Assembly: GCA_019752815.1 (NCBI GenBank)
Contig: JAIELQ010000008.1
Location: 1 to 34,398, forward strand
Direction: 5' to 3'
DNA: 34,398 bases
Source: Patescibacteria group bacterium
GTDB lineage: Bacteria > Patescibacteriota > Minisyncoccia > Phycocordibacterales > UBA918
A program made the translations under genes and the position numbers. This document shows, one piece after another, positions 5,542 through 31,863 of this stretch. Under the pieces are notes generated by a model. That model saw only the letters and a program-made list of their open reading frames with translations, made no database searches and was not told the DNA's origin. Within the stretch, counting starts at the first letter, position 1. Each line of letters starts with the position of its first letter.

Positions 5542-6757
5542 CGCCAATTGAATAAATCGGTGCAATCAACGCGAGCGCAAAGAACCCTACCCCGCCACCA
5601 ATGACCACCATCAAGAGTGGTTCAATAATCGTTGAAAGGTCTTTGGTTTTTCGCTCTACTTCGGTTTCGTAAAAAATAGCCAGTTCGCCTAACATGCCGG
5701 CAATTTGTCCGGTCTCTTCACCTACCAAAATCATTTCCCCAACGAGTACGGGATACAAATCCGTTCGCTCTACGAATGACTCCGACAGTGGTGTTCCCTT
5801 TTCTACCCGGTCTCGTGCACTGCGAATAATTTGTTTATAAAAATAGTTTTGCACCACCTCTTCGGTAATCTCTAACGCCTGCATCACATCAACTCCTGAA
5901 TTAAGTAACGATGACAGTGTACGCGCTGTACGCGCTGAGTTTGTTTCTTTGGCCAATGTTCCAATCACCGGTAGTTTTGGCACCAGCCACGAGGTGGCAA
6001 TTTTGCCGTATTTAGTTCGGAGTCCATAGAGCAACAGAATAACAAACCCAATCATTCCACCGACTGCAAGCACAGTGTACTCAACAAAGAAATCGCTAGC
6101 AGAAATTAAAAATTGAGTCGTTACCGGCAAATCGGTTCCCATTTCTTTGAACACACCGGTAATTTGCGGCATCACAAAAATCATCATCAGCACCCCAATA
6201 ATAACCATGGCCATTAATACAATCGACGGGTACATCATCGCCCCTTTAATTTTCTTTTTTAGGTTCGCTGAGCGCTCCATTTGCACTGCGAGCGTCTGGA
6301 GTGAATCAGCCAAATTTCCACTCTCTTCTCCAGCCTTAATCATCGCTACATACAAATCACTAAATACTTCGGGGAAAGCAGCCAGGGCTTCAAAAAATTG
6401 CCCACCCTTATTGATGTTATCAATAATTTGTTTTACGACGCCTTTGAGTTTCGCATTAGTACTTTGTCGTTCAATTACTGACAAGGCTCGAGTAATAGTG
6501 AGCCCAGCCGTAAGCATCGAACCGAGGTTGCGGGTCATCATCACGAGCTCATCTTGTTTTACCTTGCCTAACTTATAGTTAATGGCGTCCATATTGATCA
6601 AGTTCTTCAGCGCGAAGCCACTTGATTCTTCAATACTTTCAACCGTATGGTTGTTACTGCGCGCAATATCGTAGACCGCATACCGATCATCGGCCGTCAC
6701 AGTTTCTTTGACTTTTTTCCCTTCGGTATCGAGACCGGTATAGGTAAATTTAGCCAT
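5528..6757 (-). CDS. pilC: Type II secretion/type IV pilus inner-membrane protein PilC (GspF family)
   Basis: MAKFTYTGLDTEGKKVKETVTADDR...MIKAGEESGNLADSL...GEETGQIAGMLGELAIFYETEVERKTKDLSTIIEPLLMVVIGGGVGFFALALIAPIYSIGDGI. Confidence 0.95.
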   Translation of the reverse strand: MAKFTYTGLDTEGKKVKETVTADDRYAVYDIARSNNHTVESIEESSGFALKNLINMDAINYKLGKVKQDELVMMTRNLGSMLTAGLTITRALSVIERQSTNAKLKGVVKQIIDNINKGGQFFEALAAFPEVFSDLYVAMIKAGEESGNLADSLQTLAVQMERSANLKKKIKGAMMYPSIVLMAMVIIGVLMMIFVMPQITGVFKEMGTDLPVTTQFLISASDFFVEYTVLAVGGMIGFVILLLYGLRTKYGKIATSWLVPKLPVIGTLAKETNSARTARTLSSLLNSGVDVMQALEITEEVVQNYFYKQIIRSARDRVEKGTPLSESFVERTDLYPVLVGEMILVGEETGQIAGMLGELAIFYETEVERKTKDLSTIIEPLLMVVIGGGVGFFALALIAPIYSIGDGIK

Positions 6758-15200: not shown

Positions 15201-15228
15201 ATAGCAACCAGGACAGGTTCCAGTAATT

Positions 15229-15320
15229 TTCCTTACAGGAACAGTACACCGTTTGGATATTTTGAAAAAATTCAAAATATCTCAAACGGTTCTGCACAGT
15301 GACATTTGGTCACTGTGCAG
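15229..15320 (+). repeat. Triple-hairpin element copy D
   Basis: TTCC-TTACA-GGAA, CAGTAC, ACCGTTTG g ATATTTTGAA..TTCAAAATAT ct CAAACGGT, CTGCACAGTGAC-atttg-GTCACTGTGCAG. Confidence 0.75.
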
Positions 15321-15365
15321 CCCTAGGAAGGGGCAAATCGGGAACTAAATTCGCCATTGTCACTA

Positions 15366-15444
15366 CTTCTTACAGAAGCTGTTTAGGTTATCGCTCTTTT
15401 TCCAAAAGAGCTGGCAACCTCTTGCGAAAGTCTCCCAGACTTTC
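15366..15444 (+). repeat. Triple-hairpin element copy B
   Basis: CTTC-TTACA-GAAG, CTGT, AGGTT atc GCTCTTTT-tcc-AAAAGAGC tggc AACCT, CTTGC, GAAAGTCT-ccc-AGACTTTC. Confidence 0.75.
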
Positions 15445-15552: not shown

Positions 15553-16152
15553 ATGAAACACACTCAACCAGAAACTGCTCAGCTCGTGCCGATGGTGATT
15601 GAAAAAACCCAAGGTGGTGAACGCGCGTATGATATTTACTCACGACTCCTCAAAGAACGTATCATCTTCATTACCGGTGGTATCGAAGACCACATGGCCA
15701 ACCTCGTAGTAGCGCAATTACTCTTCCTCGAAGCCGAGGACCCGAAAAAAGACATCTACCTGTACATCAACTCACCGGGTGGTAGCGTCACTGCAGGACT
15801 ATCAATTATTGATACCATGCACCACATCAAACCAGATGTAGCGACCGTATGTGTAGGAATGGCAGCGTCAATGGGATCACTCATTTTGTCACAAGGGCAA
15901 AAAAATAAGCGCTTTATCCTACCAAACGCCGAAGTCATGATTCACCAACCGTCAGGGGGCGCGTACGGACAGGCGTCAGATATCGACATTACTGCCAAGC
16001 ACATCATTAAAACCCGCGACCGATTGAACAAAATGCTCGCCAAAGCCACCGGCCAAAAGCTAACAAAAATTGAAGCCGACGTTGACCGAGATTTATTCAT
16101 GGATGCAGACGAGGCGTTGAAGTATGGCCTCGTAGATAAGATTTATTCTTAA
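15553..16152 (+). CDS. clpP: ATP-dependent Clp protease proteolytic subunit
   Basis: [37 protein letters not shown] (Ser), [19 protein letters not shown] (His), KYGLVDKI. Confidence 0.96.
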
Positions 16153-19886: not shown

Positions 19887-20064
19887 GGGCGAGAAGAATC
19901 GAAACTTACAGTTTCAGTACCCCAATTGGCTGGATTGTTTCGCAAGCTCGCAATCCAGCTCAATCGGGCTTCGATTCTTCACGGAAGTGCGTCAAAGCAC
20001 TTCCTTCGCTCCGCACAGCAACAACAGAAAAACCGCCCCAAAGGGCGGCTTTTCATGTTGGCTG
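19887..20064 (+). repeat. tRNA-Gly(UCC)-associated triple-hairpin element copy F
   Basis: Direct repeat of tRNA 3' end GGGCGAGAAGAATCGAA (19887-19903 vs 20068-20084); GAAAC-TTACA-GTTTC; AGTAC; CCCAATTGGCTGGATTG...CAATCCAGCTCAATCGGG; GGAAGTGC-gtcaaa-GCACTTCC. Confidence 0.85.
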
Positions 20065-20065
20065 T

Positions 20066-20135
20066 GCGGGCGAGAAGAATCGAACTCCCATCTACTGCTT
20101 GGAAGGCAGTCGTTTTACCACTAAACTACGCCCGC
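20066..20135 (-). tRNA. tRNA-Gly (anticodon UCC)
   Basis: GCGGGCGTAGTTTAGTGGTAAAACGACTGCCTTCCAAGCAGTAGATGGGAGTTCGATTCTTCTCGCCCGC; cloverleaf; no encoded CCA. Confidence 0.93.
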
Positions 20136-26529: not shown

Positions 26530-26600
26530 CGGGGTGTAGCATAGTGGTAGTGTATCCGGTTTGGGACCGGATGGTCAGGGTTCGATTCCCTGCTCCCCGA
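26530..26600 (+). tRNA. tRNA-Pro (anticodon UGG)
   Basis: CGGGGTGTAGCATAGTGGTAGTGTATCCGGTTTGGGACCGGATGGTCAGGGTTCGATTCCCTGCTCCCCGA; no encoded CCA. Confidence 0.93.
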
Positions 26601-26834
26601 CAAAAACAAAGAGTCTTAGCTTCTTGCTAAGGCTTTTTGTTTTATGTGGCTTGAGAATCGAAGCCCGATTGAGCTAAATAGTGAGTGAAAAAGTGTATGG
26701 ACACTTTTGCAAGACCTTGCCTGCTATTTTGAAAAATAGTGACAAGGTGTACAGCCTCTGTAAAATGGTACGAACAAATTAGCCAATTGGGGTACTGAAA
26801 CGGTACGTTTCGATTCCCTGCTCCCCGACAAAAA
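26601..26834 (-). repeat. tRNA-Pro-associated triple-hairpin element (copy G) with a second copy (C) nested in its long hairpin
   Basis: 26-bp exact direct repeat TTCGATTCCCTGCTCCCCGACAAAAA (26581-26606 and 26809-26834); reverse strand GAAACGTACCGTTTCAGTACCCCAATTGGCTAA...[CATTTTACAGAGGCTGTACACCTTGtcaCTATTTT-tc-AAAATAGcaggCAAGGTCTTGCAAAAGTGTCCATACACTTTTT]...TTTAGCTCAATCGGGCTTCGATTC. Confidence 0.85.
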
Positions 26835-26874
26835 ACAAAAACTCTAGTTTCATATGAAACTAGAGTTTTTGTTT
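26833..26874. terminator. 42-bp perfect palindrome (terminator-like, contains a parS-like core)
   Basis: AAACAAAAACTCTAGTTTCATATGAAACTAGAGTTTTTGTTT. Confidence 0.85.
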
Positions 26875-26941
26875 GTTCAGAATAAAAAAGTTCCATATGA
26901 AACAAAAATTCATGTTTCTCAAACGTATTTCACATGAAACA

Positions 26942-27358
26942 CTAATCAATAACGATATTACTGATAATATTCATCGTAGCATACGTTTCACGTGATACAG
27001 TTCTCACTGCTGCTACGTCTATTTGCCAATTCCCTTGCCAATTATGTTCCGCCAGCCAGGTTTCTATCGCTCGGGCTAGTTTCTTAATCTTATATTTATG
27101 AACATTCTCTTCTGGGCGGTAGGTGCCACGTAGAACAGCGAGTTCTAGATCCGGCTTTGTTTCATATGAAACTGTTTTAACCTCGACAAAATGAACTTTG
27201 TCATCTTTTTGAGCAATTACATCTATTTCACCCCATTGTTTCCGATAATTCATGCCAATAATTGCATAACCTTGTTTTCTTAGATAATCAGCAATTAATA
27301 ACTCTCCCTGGTTACCTGTTTCTTTATTTTTAAGCTTTTTGGATGCCAAACGTTCCAT
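26942..27358 (-). CDS. yraN: YraN/UPF0102 family endonuclease-like protein
   Basis: GNQGELLIADYLRKQGYAIIGMNYRKQWGEIDVIAQKDDKVHFVEVKT. Confidence 0.92.
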   Translation of the reverse strand: MERLASKKLKNKETGNQGELLIADYLRKQGYAIIGMNYRKQWGEIDVIAQKDDKVHFVEVKTVSYETKPDLELAVLRGTYRPEENVHKYKIKKLARAIETWLAEHNWQGNWQIDVAAVRTVSRETYATMNIISNIVID

Positions 27359-27637
27359 ATGAAACAGTATAGCACCTCTAAACTGGCTAAATTCATCAAT
27401 TCTGGTAACTTTTAATGTTTCATATGTAACATATTGGTATATGTTTCACGTGATACATATACTTATTATTTAAAAAGTAATAATAGATAATTAGTTAAAA
27501 CCTGTATTTTAAGAAAATTATATAAAAAATGATGTCTTAAAGACATTGTCCTTTATACACAGGAAAGTAGTTTTTACAAAGTTTTTTGTTGGGATTGTTA
27601 TATAATTTACGTTATAAGTAACATTTTAATATCTTTT

Positions 27638-28063
27638 ATGTCATTTGAATCAGAAAAAAACGCAGAAGGAATGGAACGTGAGCCAGCCCGATTAAGTCTA
27701 GAAGAATTTACGGAAGTATTCTTCACCTCTGGTTCAGATAGAGAAGCGCCAGCGTTTCAAGAAAGATGTGCTGATTTGAATGTTCCGAATGCTGGAGAAG
27801 CGACGCTAATTGTTGAAGGCTACAAAATTAATGTCAATGTCAACAAGGAGAACGGTATCACAATTATGGATGACGCCGAGTCACAAGCTAGTTTAGCTGC
27901 TATCCGCGAACTAGGATTTTATGGCGGCGTAACTAATGAAACTACGGGACAATGGTTGTCGGGGGCAAGTTTCAACCCTGAGGATATTGCAGCAGAACAA
28001 AGAGCTCAACATACAATTGATCGTGTTAAAGGTTTTGCAAATCGTATGATTGGGCGTAAATAG
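27638..28063 (+). CDS. Hypothetical protein (141 aa)
   Basis: MSFESEKNAEGMEREPARLSLEEFTEVFF...; no family recognised. Confidence 0.65.
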   Translation: MSFESEKNAEGMEREPARLSLEEFTEVFFTSGSDREAPAFQERCADLNVPNAGEATLIVEGYKINVNVNKENGITIMDDAESQASLAAIRELGFYGGVTNETTGQWLSGASFNPEDIAAEQRAQHTIDRVKGFANRMIGRK

Positions 28064-28358
28064 ATAAAAACAATGGATCTTGTTTAAAGTAAAATTTTAC
28101 ACAAAAAAACTGTTTCACATGACACAAATATCAATTTTTTATCAACAGTTTTTGAATGAAAATATATATTTTAAGCCATATCTATATAGGAAAGGTGTCT
28201 TTTGCTAATGTCTCTTATCCACCTGTTAGACAAGTTATCCACTGTTGACGACTGATAGGGACAGTCTATGACAATCACTAAGTTGAAATGGGTTCAGGGA
28301 CAGCAATTCAAAGATACCCATGTTAAAATTATGATGTTATTAAGATAATTTGTTTCAT

Positions 28359-28784
28359 ATGCAATTAGTAGATCGGATCAATCGAACCAATCGTTTAACT
28401 GAGGACCATGCTAAGTTAATTCTGCGTCTATCAGTAGGTTTTCTTGTTTTATTACACGGTATTTATAAATTACAAAATCCTGGTGCTATGGATTTTGTGG
28501 GGGGAGCGTTTGCTAGCGTTGGACTACCGTCCGCACTCGCATATTTGGTATACATTGGGGAAGTAATCGCACCAATTATGTTGCTTGTCGGATACCAAAC
28601 TCGGATTGCCTCATTACTTGTTGCCATCACTATGGTTGTAGCTATTTTATTGGTGCATACGGGCGATCTCTTTGCATTATCAGAGATGGGAGGTGGGTAC
28701 GCCCTTGAACTCCAGGTAATGTTCCTCGCCGGAGCAGTGGCCATATTTGGACTAGGTGCAGGGAAGTATAAGCTGGTCAAGTAG
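28359..28784 (+). CDS. DoxX family membrane protein
   Basis: LILRLSVGFLVLLHGIYKLQNPGAMDFVGGAFASVGLPSALAYLVYIGEVIAPIMLLVGYQTRIASLLVAITM; start ATG overlaps a parS-like site. Confidence 0.88.
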   Translation: MQLVDRINRTNRLTEDHAKLILRLSVGFLVLLHGIYKLQNPGAMDFVGGAFASVGLPSALAYLVYIGEVIAPIMLLVGYQTRIASLLVAITMVVAILLVHTGDLFALSEMGGGYALELQVMFLAGAVAIFGLGAGKYKLVK

Positions 28785-28839: not shown

Positions 28840-29018
28840 GGGAGAATCGGTCACGAATCACTAAGTACATTATTTCGCTACGCTCATAATCTCCAAAGTG
28901 TTCGCGACCCCGACTCGACTGTTGCTAAAGCAACATGTCTCCGTCTTTCGATTCTCCACGTAAAGCGCGCAGGCGCTTTACTCTGGCCGCAAAAAAGACC
29001 CTTTCGGGTCTTTCTTTG
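28840..29018 (+). repeat. tRNA-Gly(GCC)-associated triple-hairpin-like element copy H (divergent)
   Basis: GGGAGAATCG repeat of tRNA end (28840-28849 vs 29027-29036); GGTC a CGAA t CACT...ATTAT..ATAAT...AGTG TTCG c GACC; internal TTTCGATTCTCC; GTAAAGCGC-gcag-GCGCTTTAC; CTGGCCGCA..TGCGGCCAG palindrome into tRNA. Confidence 0.65.
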
Positions 29019-29019
29019 T

Positions 29020-29089
29020 GCGGCCAGGGAGAATCGAACTCCCGACCTATCGTTGGCAACGATACGTTATACCACTTAACCATGGCCGC
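29020..29089 (-). tRNA. tRNA-Gly (anticodon GCC)
   Basis: GCGGCCATGGTTAAGTGGTATAACGTATCGTTGCCAACGATAGGTCGGGAGTTCGATTCTCCCTGGCCGC; no encoded CCA. Confidence 0.93.
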
Positions 29090-31538: not shown

Positions 31539-31744
31539 GGGACTCGGTCCTTACAGGACCAGTACCCCAAATTGGCTGGATTGTTTCGCAAGCTCATAAT
31601 CCAGCTCAATCGGGCTTCGAGTCCCTCCCAGGGACTCGAACTCTACGAGTTCAGTACACCTTGTCGCCATTTTGTTTCCTTGCAGTCACAAAATTGCTGG
31701 CAAGGTCTTCGAGTCCCTCCCGCGAGTGACATTTAGTCACTCGC
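31539..31744 (+). repeat. tRNA-Arg-associated tandem triple-hairpin elements (copies E1 and E2)
   Basis: E1: GGTCC-TTACA-GGACC AGTAC CCCAAATTGGCTGGATT...AATCCAGCTCAATCGGG CTTCGAGTCCCTCCC; E2: AACTC-tac-GAGTT CAGTAC ACCTTG...CAAGGT CTTCGAGTCCCTCCC GCGAGTGAC-attta-GTCACTCGC; AGGGACTCGAAC at 31630 repeats tRNA end at 31801. Confidence 0.85.
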
Positions 31745-31747
31745 TCG

Positions 31748-31799
31748 AGTGCACACATGAAAAAGACCCCAAATGGGGTCTTTTTCATGTGTGCACTCG
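31748..31799. terminator. Very long palindromic terminator fused to the tRNA-Arg acceptor end
   Basis: CGAGTGCACACATGAAAAAGACCCC-aaat-GGGGTCTTTTTCATGTGTGCACTCG (25-bp arms). Confidence 0.9.
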
Positions 31800-31863
31800 G
31801 AGGGACTCGAACCCCCGACGACTGTTCCGAAGACAGTAATGATATCCACTTCACCACGAGTGC
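31793..31863 (-). tRNA. tRNA-Arg (anticodon UCG)
   Basis: GCACTCGTGGTGAAGTGGATATCATTACTGTCTTCGGAACAGTCGTCGGGGGTTCGAGTCCCTCCGAGTGC; no encoded CCA. Confidence 0.93.

Follow-up and report, generated by a model that had tools for sequence, protein, structure and literature searches.

A 34,398-nt stretch of patescibacterial DNA, the window analysed here, contains at its tRNA-Gly(UCC) gene a unit that likely belongs to a family of site-specific mobile elements of Paceibacteria/Parcubacteria. These elements have no open reading frame (ORF), are ~130-200 bp long and would be adapted, lineage by lineage, to the 3′ end of one gene each. The target genes are tRNAs plus fusA, ftsZ and rplK.

In the orientation of the tRNA-Gly(UCC) gene (20064-20135, minus strand; ARAGORN and Rfam RF00005, 73.4 bits), the unit consists of the tRNA up to T55, the tRNA 3′ end from C56 (X; the 3′ half of the T-arm and the 3′ strand of the acceptor; 20064-20082, minus), a palindrome with a terminator, a hairpin (hp), an inverted T-arm segment (X1′), a 70-nt core and a second direct X. 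The left junction is in the T-loop, between positions 55 and 56 (20083/20082). The palindrome (20011-20069) is formed by the acceptor 3′ end and trailer, a bidirectional terminator hairpin at the tip and an inverted acceptor copy (X2′), and has 9-bp perfect outer arms besides the terminator stem. The hp (19981-20010, minus) is embedded in the inverted tRNA 3′ end, at a distance of 9-11 nt from the core; it has the equivalent position at many other tRNAs, with no target letters lost from the inverted copy. X1′ (19972-19980, minus) is the inverted copy of T-arm positions 56-64. The core, of the type called A (19902-19971, minus), comprises a long imperfect hairpin, GTACTGA and a small palindromic hairpin with a GTA loop, and matched our covariance model (R1) at 97.1 bits (E = 7e-24). 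The right copy of X, putatively the displaced native tRNA-Gly 3′ end, is a direct repeat of 15 nt (19887-19901, minus) and decays thereafter.

The original prediction, made from the window alone, was that the 17-bp GGGCGAGAAGAATCGAA is duplicated around a single element of ~180 bp that includes an inverted T-arm copy, TTCGATTCTTC. Both sequences were present exactly, the former at 19887-19903 and at 20068-20084, within the tRNA-Gly(UCC) gene, and the latter at 19970-19980, and coordinates and strand were right. The duplication is not due to chance: at spacings of 30-220 bp, direct repeats reached no more than 15 bp in 200 Markov-1 sequences as long as the window. In addition, GAAGAATCGAA with at most one mismatch occurs six times versus 0.70 expected, and none of 100 shuffles contained as many. 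The end of the tRNA is duplicated around a real, single unit; the repeats are not the limits of this unit, whose left junction is T-loop 55/56.

All four tRNAs of the window carry units. tRNA-Pro(TGG) (26530-26601, plus) is followed by its own unit, with a composite core in which a second A-type hairpin is nested in core A (26661-26810, plus) and a right copy of the tRNA 3′ end, CGATTCCCTGCTCCCCGACAAAAA (26811-26834, plus). The unit of tRNA-Gly(GCC) (29018-29089, minus) has an hp (28958-28982, minus) whose 25-mer is identical at tRNA-Ser(ACT) of the same genome, and a core of a different family, B (28849-28948, minus). At tRNA-Arg(TCG) (31791-31863, minus), a palindrome with 26-nt perfect arms includes the tRNA 3′ end (31746-31799) and is followed by an hp (31721-31745, minus); two units lie in tandem, the first with core A′ (31639-31709, minus; R1, 92.5 bits) and the second with core A (31547-31617, minus; R1, 88.5 bits). 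Two further core-A copies (15218-15297 and 15365-15423, minus) adjoin a gene at 15553-16152, outside any tRNA context; they are of the A2 form (GTGAG-hp-CGCAAG) and have no tRNA-derived segment. Recurring palindromes resembling GTTTCATATGAAAC and GTTTCACGTGATAC at 26840-28370 are possible operator sites, and at the contig end (34142-34343) there are large inverted repeats whose 61-nt arms match imperfectly (75%).

The cores (families A, A′, B and C) are conserved as structures. Core A is a three-helix structure of 70-100 nt that carries no GTAG or CGTC tag (alignments A1 and A2); 33 units fit it with 95.4% of cells paired, covariation was 0.611 versus 0.171 ± 0.013 after shuffling, and 27/31 pairs were changed on both sides. 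Core B, with 18 units, has two arms and 15/23 covarying pairs. When the stems were read on the sense strand, G.T exceeded A.C (29 versus 5, or 13 versus 5 after removal of one fixed column), a bias that is suggestive of, and gives moderate support to, selection on a single-stranded fold of the sense strand. In the Rfam search, only tRNAs reached the gathering level in the window, and no credible match was found at the element (E ≤ 5).

The home genome (G000, Kaiserbacteria-like; 1.04 Mb in 22 contigs, with 38 Rfam tRNAs) has units 3′ of roughly two thirds of its tRNAs, as counted by inspection of all 3′ flanks, and the core-A model matches 40 places in it. Matches were obtained in 36/59 relatives; among named genomes, the matches are in Parcubacteria OLB19, Kaiserbacteria, Zambryskibacteria and Nomurabacteria. 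The genomes compared are MAGs. All but one of the patescibacterial matches examined, the exception being at a contig edge, stand immediately 3′ of a tRNA and in its sense orientation. Matches in the genome collection outside Patescibacteria (L056, L065, L072) had no tRNA nearby and were dismissed as chance, and two pattern scans of the viral collection gave zero matches and one chance match. Many relatives have no unit at the same gene; no tRNA offered a clean empty-site pair. The cores are modular: in the tRNA-Gly(UCC) slot, with its conserved trailer and hp, different species have core A (G000, G023, G030), A′ (G027, G029), B (G005, G006) or C (G002). Some genomes contain identical units in tandem, and in some arrays identical trailers flank the core on both sides. 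One whole tRNA-Gln(TTG) unit is located at a tRNA-free site (L157; G000 C2:127278) and is nearly identical to the second unit at C3:77210. In a truncated pseudo-tRNA-Arg(TCT) (L020; G000 C6, about 6160-6320), located 100 bp upstream from the intact gene, hp and core A′ are placed directly within the T-loop. As a separate observation, an A2-type element (L220; G000 C2:52700-54200, about 675-840) follows about codon 12 of a beta-glucosidase-like gene, and a direct duplication of roughly 47 bp with one synonymous difference restores the start of this gene downstream. Other T-arm- or acceptor-like remnants, outside core families A and B, were noted behind tRNA-Thr (TGT in L010), tRNA-Glu and tRNA-Pro (L023, L026, L031).

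The inner segment tracks the tRNA to which it is adjacent. For 47 units from many genomes, matches to the own tRNA numbered 280, versus 183.5 ± 8.0 when the tRNAs were permuted (0/200,000 permutations reached the observed value). Within the home genome, the best inverted match in the 3′ flank of every tRNA likewise gave 149 matches to the own T-arm versus 113.6 ± 5.6 (0/100,000). At T-loop position 59, which is under no stem constraint, the match was 0.89 with the own tRNA versus 0.32 with another tRNA. Among orthologous tRNA-Gly(UCC) genes, X1′ switches between GAAGAATCG and GAGGAATCG along with the T-arm, with a few lagging exceptions (G002, G026). The expectation that the inner T-arm segment follows the adjacent tRNA in most copies was therefore borne out by these permutations. 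The accompanying proposal, that this segment is copied from its target, fared less well at protein-coding targets, as described below.

In the home genome, the 3′ ends of fusA (EF-G), ftsZ and rplK (L11) also carry units. At fusA, the inverted segment (X′) is an inverted coding end, and a second copy of that end lies beyond the core. Units occur at fusA in six genomes, of which four use core A and the other two core B; genomes with no unit have no second fusA-end copy. The right copies keep the C-terminus and stop codon: VKDVEEEA is encoded by both copies with six synonymous changes in G061, and the other left/right pairs include VKSE/LKSD and VAAE/VSGE, each with its stop. The left-right differences at fusA fall on codon positions 1/2/3 in the proportion 5/6/28 (p = 1e-6; not all are independent; G060 and G061 share descent here). 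The home-genome ftsZ ends in AVPAFLRRSKLK and a stop; beyond the core, TVPAFLRRSKLK and a stop are re-encoded mostly by different codons. When the right copies of 11 ftsZ units were compared with their own left copies, the codon differences were 76 synonymous and 1 non-synonymous, versus a random expectation of 60.6 non-synonymous, and left and right ends differed at synonymous sites in all 11 cases. Decay of the right copy was observed at ftsZ in G020 and G025 (frameshifts) and G001 (truncation), and at fusA in G060, as compared with G061.

These recoded ends bear on the question of which copy came with the element. The first Arg codon at the ftsZ end is AGR in 7/11 left copies, 0/11 right copies and 1/13 element-free ends (p = 0.0003). 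In the two AGAAGG left-copy units that were folded (G024, G034), AGAAGG forms an extra hairpin in the X:X′ junction, at the place where tRNA units have hp, and this predicted hairpin may explain the AGR codon choice. The minimum folding energy of left ftsZ ends was marginally below that of the others (p = 0.053). At ftsZ and fusA, X′ fits the left copy in 124/130 positions, as opposed to 90/130, with a further 16 G.U, for the right copy; X′ is thus carried along with the element and is complementary to the gene-end copy that the element brings rather than to the native target. As the strongest single observation, G002 and G034 share an ftsZ insert that is 97% identical from X′ to core (124/128), with left copies identical at 35/39, whereas upstream ftsZ (445/619, 72%), the right copies (25/39, 64%) and the downstream DNA (63/130, 48%) have diverged. 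Because the insert is far more alike than both flanks, at exactly one site, this pair is best explained by horizontal insertion of an element with its own gene end. Mean identity of ftsZ ends to native ends was 26.4/36 for left and 26.5/36 for right copies, a comparison that does not separate them as synonymous sites are saturated; the assignment of left and right thus relies on the AGR signature, the fit of X′ and the G002/G034 pair. At ftsZ and fusA, we infer that the right copy is the native gene end, which accounts for the coding constraint of right copies and for their decay in some genomes. By analogy with ftsZ and fusA, the left copy would be element-borne at tRNAs too, where gene ends hardly diverge. 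A comparison of right trailers with native terminators at tRNA-Gly and tRNA-Asp yielded weakly supporting matches, among them the right trailer of G018 to the left one of G017 and the right trailer of G005 to the element-free G007. The ftsZ data weaken an origin purely by snap-back, as well as a role of X′ purely as a guide, and the fit of X′ and the near-identical insert in divergent targets run counter to copying of the inner segment from its present target. The earlier interpretation is therefore partly supported; copying from the target may occur when a new target is first acquired.

From these features we propose the following process. Each element lineage would fit one target, the 3′ end of a given tRNA gene or essential protein gene, and would enter at one exact position, T55^C56 in the tRNA T-loop or GGY-G^CN-GTN in ftsZ. 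It would open with its own copy of the gene remainder and a stop codon or terminator, so that the gene would stay functional, and the native end would be shifted downstream to persist as the right direct repeat. X′ would pair with the opening 8-12 nt of the element-borne end, of which it is the complement, and this X:X′ pairing together with hp would create a three-way junction beside the structured core. The insertion point is exact, and there is no sign of target duplication beyond the carried end. Movement might involve the sense strand in a single-stranded fold, as RNA or ssDNA, with its junctions marked by X′. At the left junction, X′ would pair where X begins; at the right junction of tRNA units it would pair with native X just as well, and both cuts could thereby be marked. 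The chemistry would be supplied by an enzyme in trans. Tentatively, and with well less than even confidence, we also consider a programmable homing mechanism that requires no protein gene in the element. In this scheme, X′ would mark what lies 3′ of the target as well as of the two junctions, and the folded sense strand (RNA or ssDNA) would insert in the end of an essential gene and would rescue it with a recoded end whose codons are chosen to fold into the three-way junction.

Of the enzyme candidates (Y1, reverse transcriptase, Xer and TnpB), none is convincing, because G002 and G034, the carriers of the shared ftsZ insert, have neither Y1 transposase nor reverse transcriptase matches, for which MAG incompleteness or loss after transfer is a possible reason. 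Y1 matches were found in 23/38 genomes, including the home genome, whose one RAYT-like gene scores below the family's curated cut-off. Reverse transcriptases were found in 9/38 genomes, the home genome included, and 29/38 had none; the home-genome gene is a group II/DGR-type relative (L212; G000 C6:29774-30361; NCBIfam TIGR04416, E = 3e-38, below cut-off). Xer-like recombinases occur once per genome in 36/38, including one each in G002 and G034. The single tyrosine recombinase of the home genome lies outside the units and scores best as XerC/XerD, far below integron-integrase cut-offs, and one such recombinase cannot easily explain many unrelated target sequences. TnpB-type nuclease (PF07282) was found in 0/38 genomes, G002 and G034 included, in a search whose controls worked; given this absence, a TnpB/omega-RNA reading in which core and right flank would serve as guide was rejected.

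Several alternative explanations of the units were weighed. The units could be REP-like non-autonomous elements that are moved by a Y1/RAYT single-strand transposase and prefer gene ends by chance. Their apical loops, GAGCnnnGCGAA, are the same as in a CGTC-type REP of this genome, A2 copies are scattered outside tRNAs, and the Y1 matches and the RAYT-like gene noted above are consistent with it. However, G002 and G034 recently shared an insert and have no Y1 match, REPs carry no gene ends, and a core was near only 1/6 Y1 loci examined; we regard this explanation as rather unlikely. Footprints of tyrosine recombinases in tRNA T-loops, i.e. attL/attR of lost islands, would account for direct repeats of tRNA 3′ ends that begin in the T-loop, and nearly all genomes (36/38) have the one Xer-like recombinase. 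The conserved covarying core largely refutes this idea, and it is further opposed by the lack of an integrase gene in the units, the unrelated targets (fusA and ftsZ), the many different tRNAs used per genome, and the presence of the inverted segment and hairpin, so that we give it hardly any credence.

Closest to the original prediction is fold-back copying, in which, at insertion, the strand cut within the gene end would be lengthened, turn back at the terminator hairpin and serve as its own template, so that the inverted segment would be made afresh from the target each time. Such a process would fit the inverted copies that often extend across the acceptor and the trailer as far as the tip of the terminator, the arrays in which the core is flanked by identical trailers, and the inverted coding sequence at fusA. 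It is improbable given that X′ at ftsZ and fusA fits the left copy and not the native right copy, that left and right differ synonymously in all 11 ftsZ cases, and that two species share a 97% identical X′-core insert in different targets. A similarly low probability is assigned to an intron-like use of both copies, in which splicing of the RNA or excision from the DNA would remove the units so frequently that the right copy is translated and kept under selection. Retention of the C-terminal code in right copies, 76 to 1, and of part of the X′ pairing to the right copy through G.U would be expected from it; yet right copies decay in G020, G025 and G001 (ftsZ) and G060 (fusA), many units contain an internal terminator, and displaced native ends account for the same data. 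A vertically inherited cis-acting RNA of tRNA or mRNA 3′ ends, serving processing, stability or termination and co-evolving with its gene, would agree with the strong covariation, the G.U bias, the constant sense orientation behind the gene, and the trailer and hairpin conserved at tRNA-Gly(UCC) in several species. We consider it very improbable: units are missing from many relatives at the same gene, core families are swapped within one slot, identical units stand in tandem, the G002/G034 insert is horizontally identical, and the displaced, coding-preserving gene end is left unexplained.

The proposed mobile-element family shares features with several known systems. Like the islands, phages and ICEs that tyrosine recombinases integrate into tRNA 3′ ends, from which tRNA fragments are known to arise (PMC9897764), the elements enter tRNAs exactly, restore the gene end and leave the displaced 3′ fragment as a direct repeat, so that each element is bounded on either side by a tRNA 3′ end; unlike them, they are ~180 bp in size, encode no integrase or other ORF, have an RNA-like conserved core and an inverted segment, and occupy many tRNAs plus several protein genes per genome. 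REP, BIME and REPIN sequences with their RAYT/TnpA-REP proteins (PMC3733652, PMC3116915, PMC8266576), which include REP families with no dedicated transposase (PMC3733652), are likewise short hairpins; the present elements share the GAGCnnnGCGAA loop with a CGTC-type REP of the home genome and have dispersed A2 copies. In contrast, the elements described here are target-specific and gene-end-carrying, are placed directly behind tRNA or essential genes and have a covarying multi-helix core, which is not a 20-40 bp palindrome tagged with GTAG or CGTC. IS200/IS605 elements and palindromic MITEs also show simple insertion with no target duplication and strand-specific hairpins, but the present elements have no TnpA or TnpB, no TnpB-type gene was found in the 38 genomes, and they carry gene ends as cargo. 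The guides of IS608 are short complementary segments beside the junction and in this respect resemble X′. Group I and II introns have a guide-like segment complementary to sequence at both junctions and a sense-strand fold; the elements, however, give no Rfam match, are far too small and hold a terminator and a second gene end. Integron attC cassettes differ in that no integron integrase was found, the sole tyrosine recombinase of the home genome scoring as XerC/XerD. TIGR-Tas arrays, considered because Parcubacteria are mentioned in the paper describing them, were rejected, as their array structure (8-12 nt repeats with 9-nt spacers) is different. Synthetic cleave-and-rescue and homing gene drives are an analogy only: they too bring a recoded functional end into an essential gene, but the elements are natural, and no nuclease was found. 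A literature search, whose coverage of subscription papers and bioRxiv preprints was thin, returned no published description of the element; the nearest papers deal with tRNA fragments left by integration (PMC9897764) and with REP families that lack a dedicated transposase (PMC3733652).

To our knowledge, a mobile element that occupies an indispensable gene usually brings an enzyme of its own. In the present case, gene-free elements appear to cross species into tRNAs, EF-G, FtsZ and L11, each with a replacement gene end, and the synonymously recoded ends of ftsZ and fusA would be a natural counterpart of recoded-rescue designs. A new mobility principle directed by base pairing is possible. Since codon-by-codon comparison distinguishes element-borne from native ends at ftsZ and fusA, these copies offer a clean system for tests. 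In practical terms, the units probably give rise to tRNA-fragment annotations and to breaks in patescibacterial assemblies. Breaks or N runs were seen inside tandem units in L092, L093, L142 and at several contig ends, and arrays are therefore probably under-assembled. Independently of the units, tRNA genes in L224 and L059 are apparently split by a group I intron, and L115 (2690-2909) has an Rfam RF00028 match of 67.8 bits.
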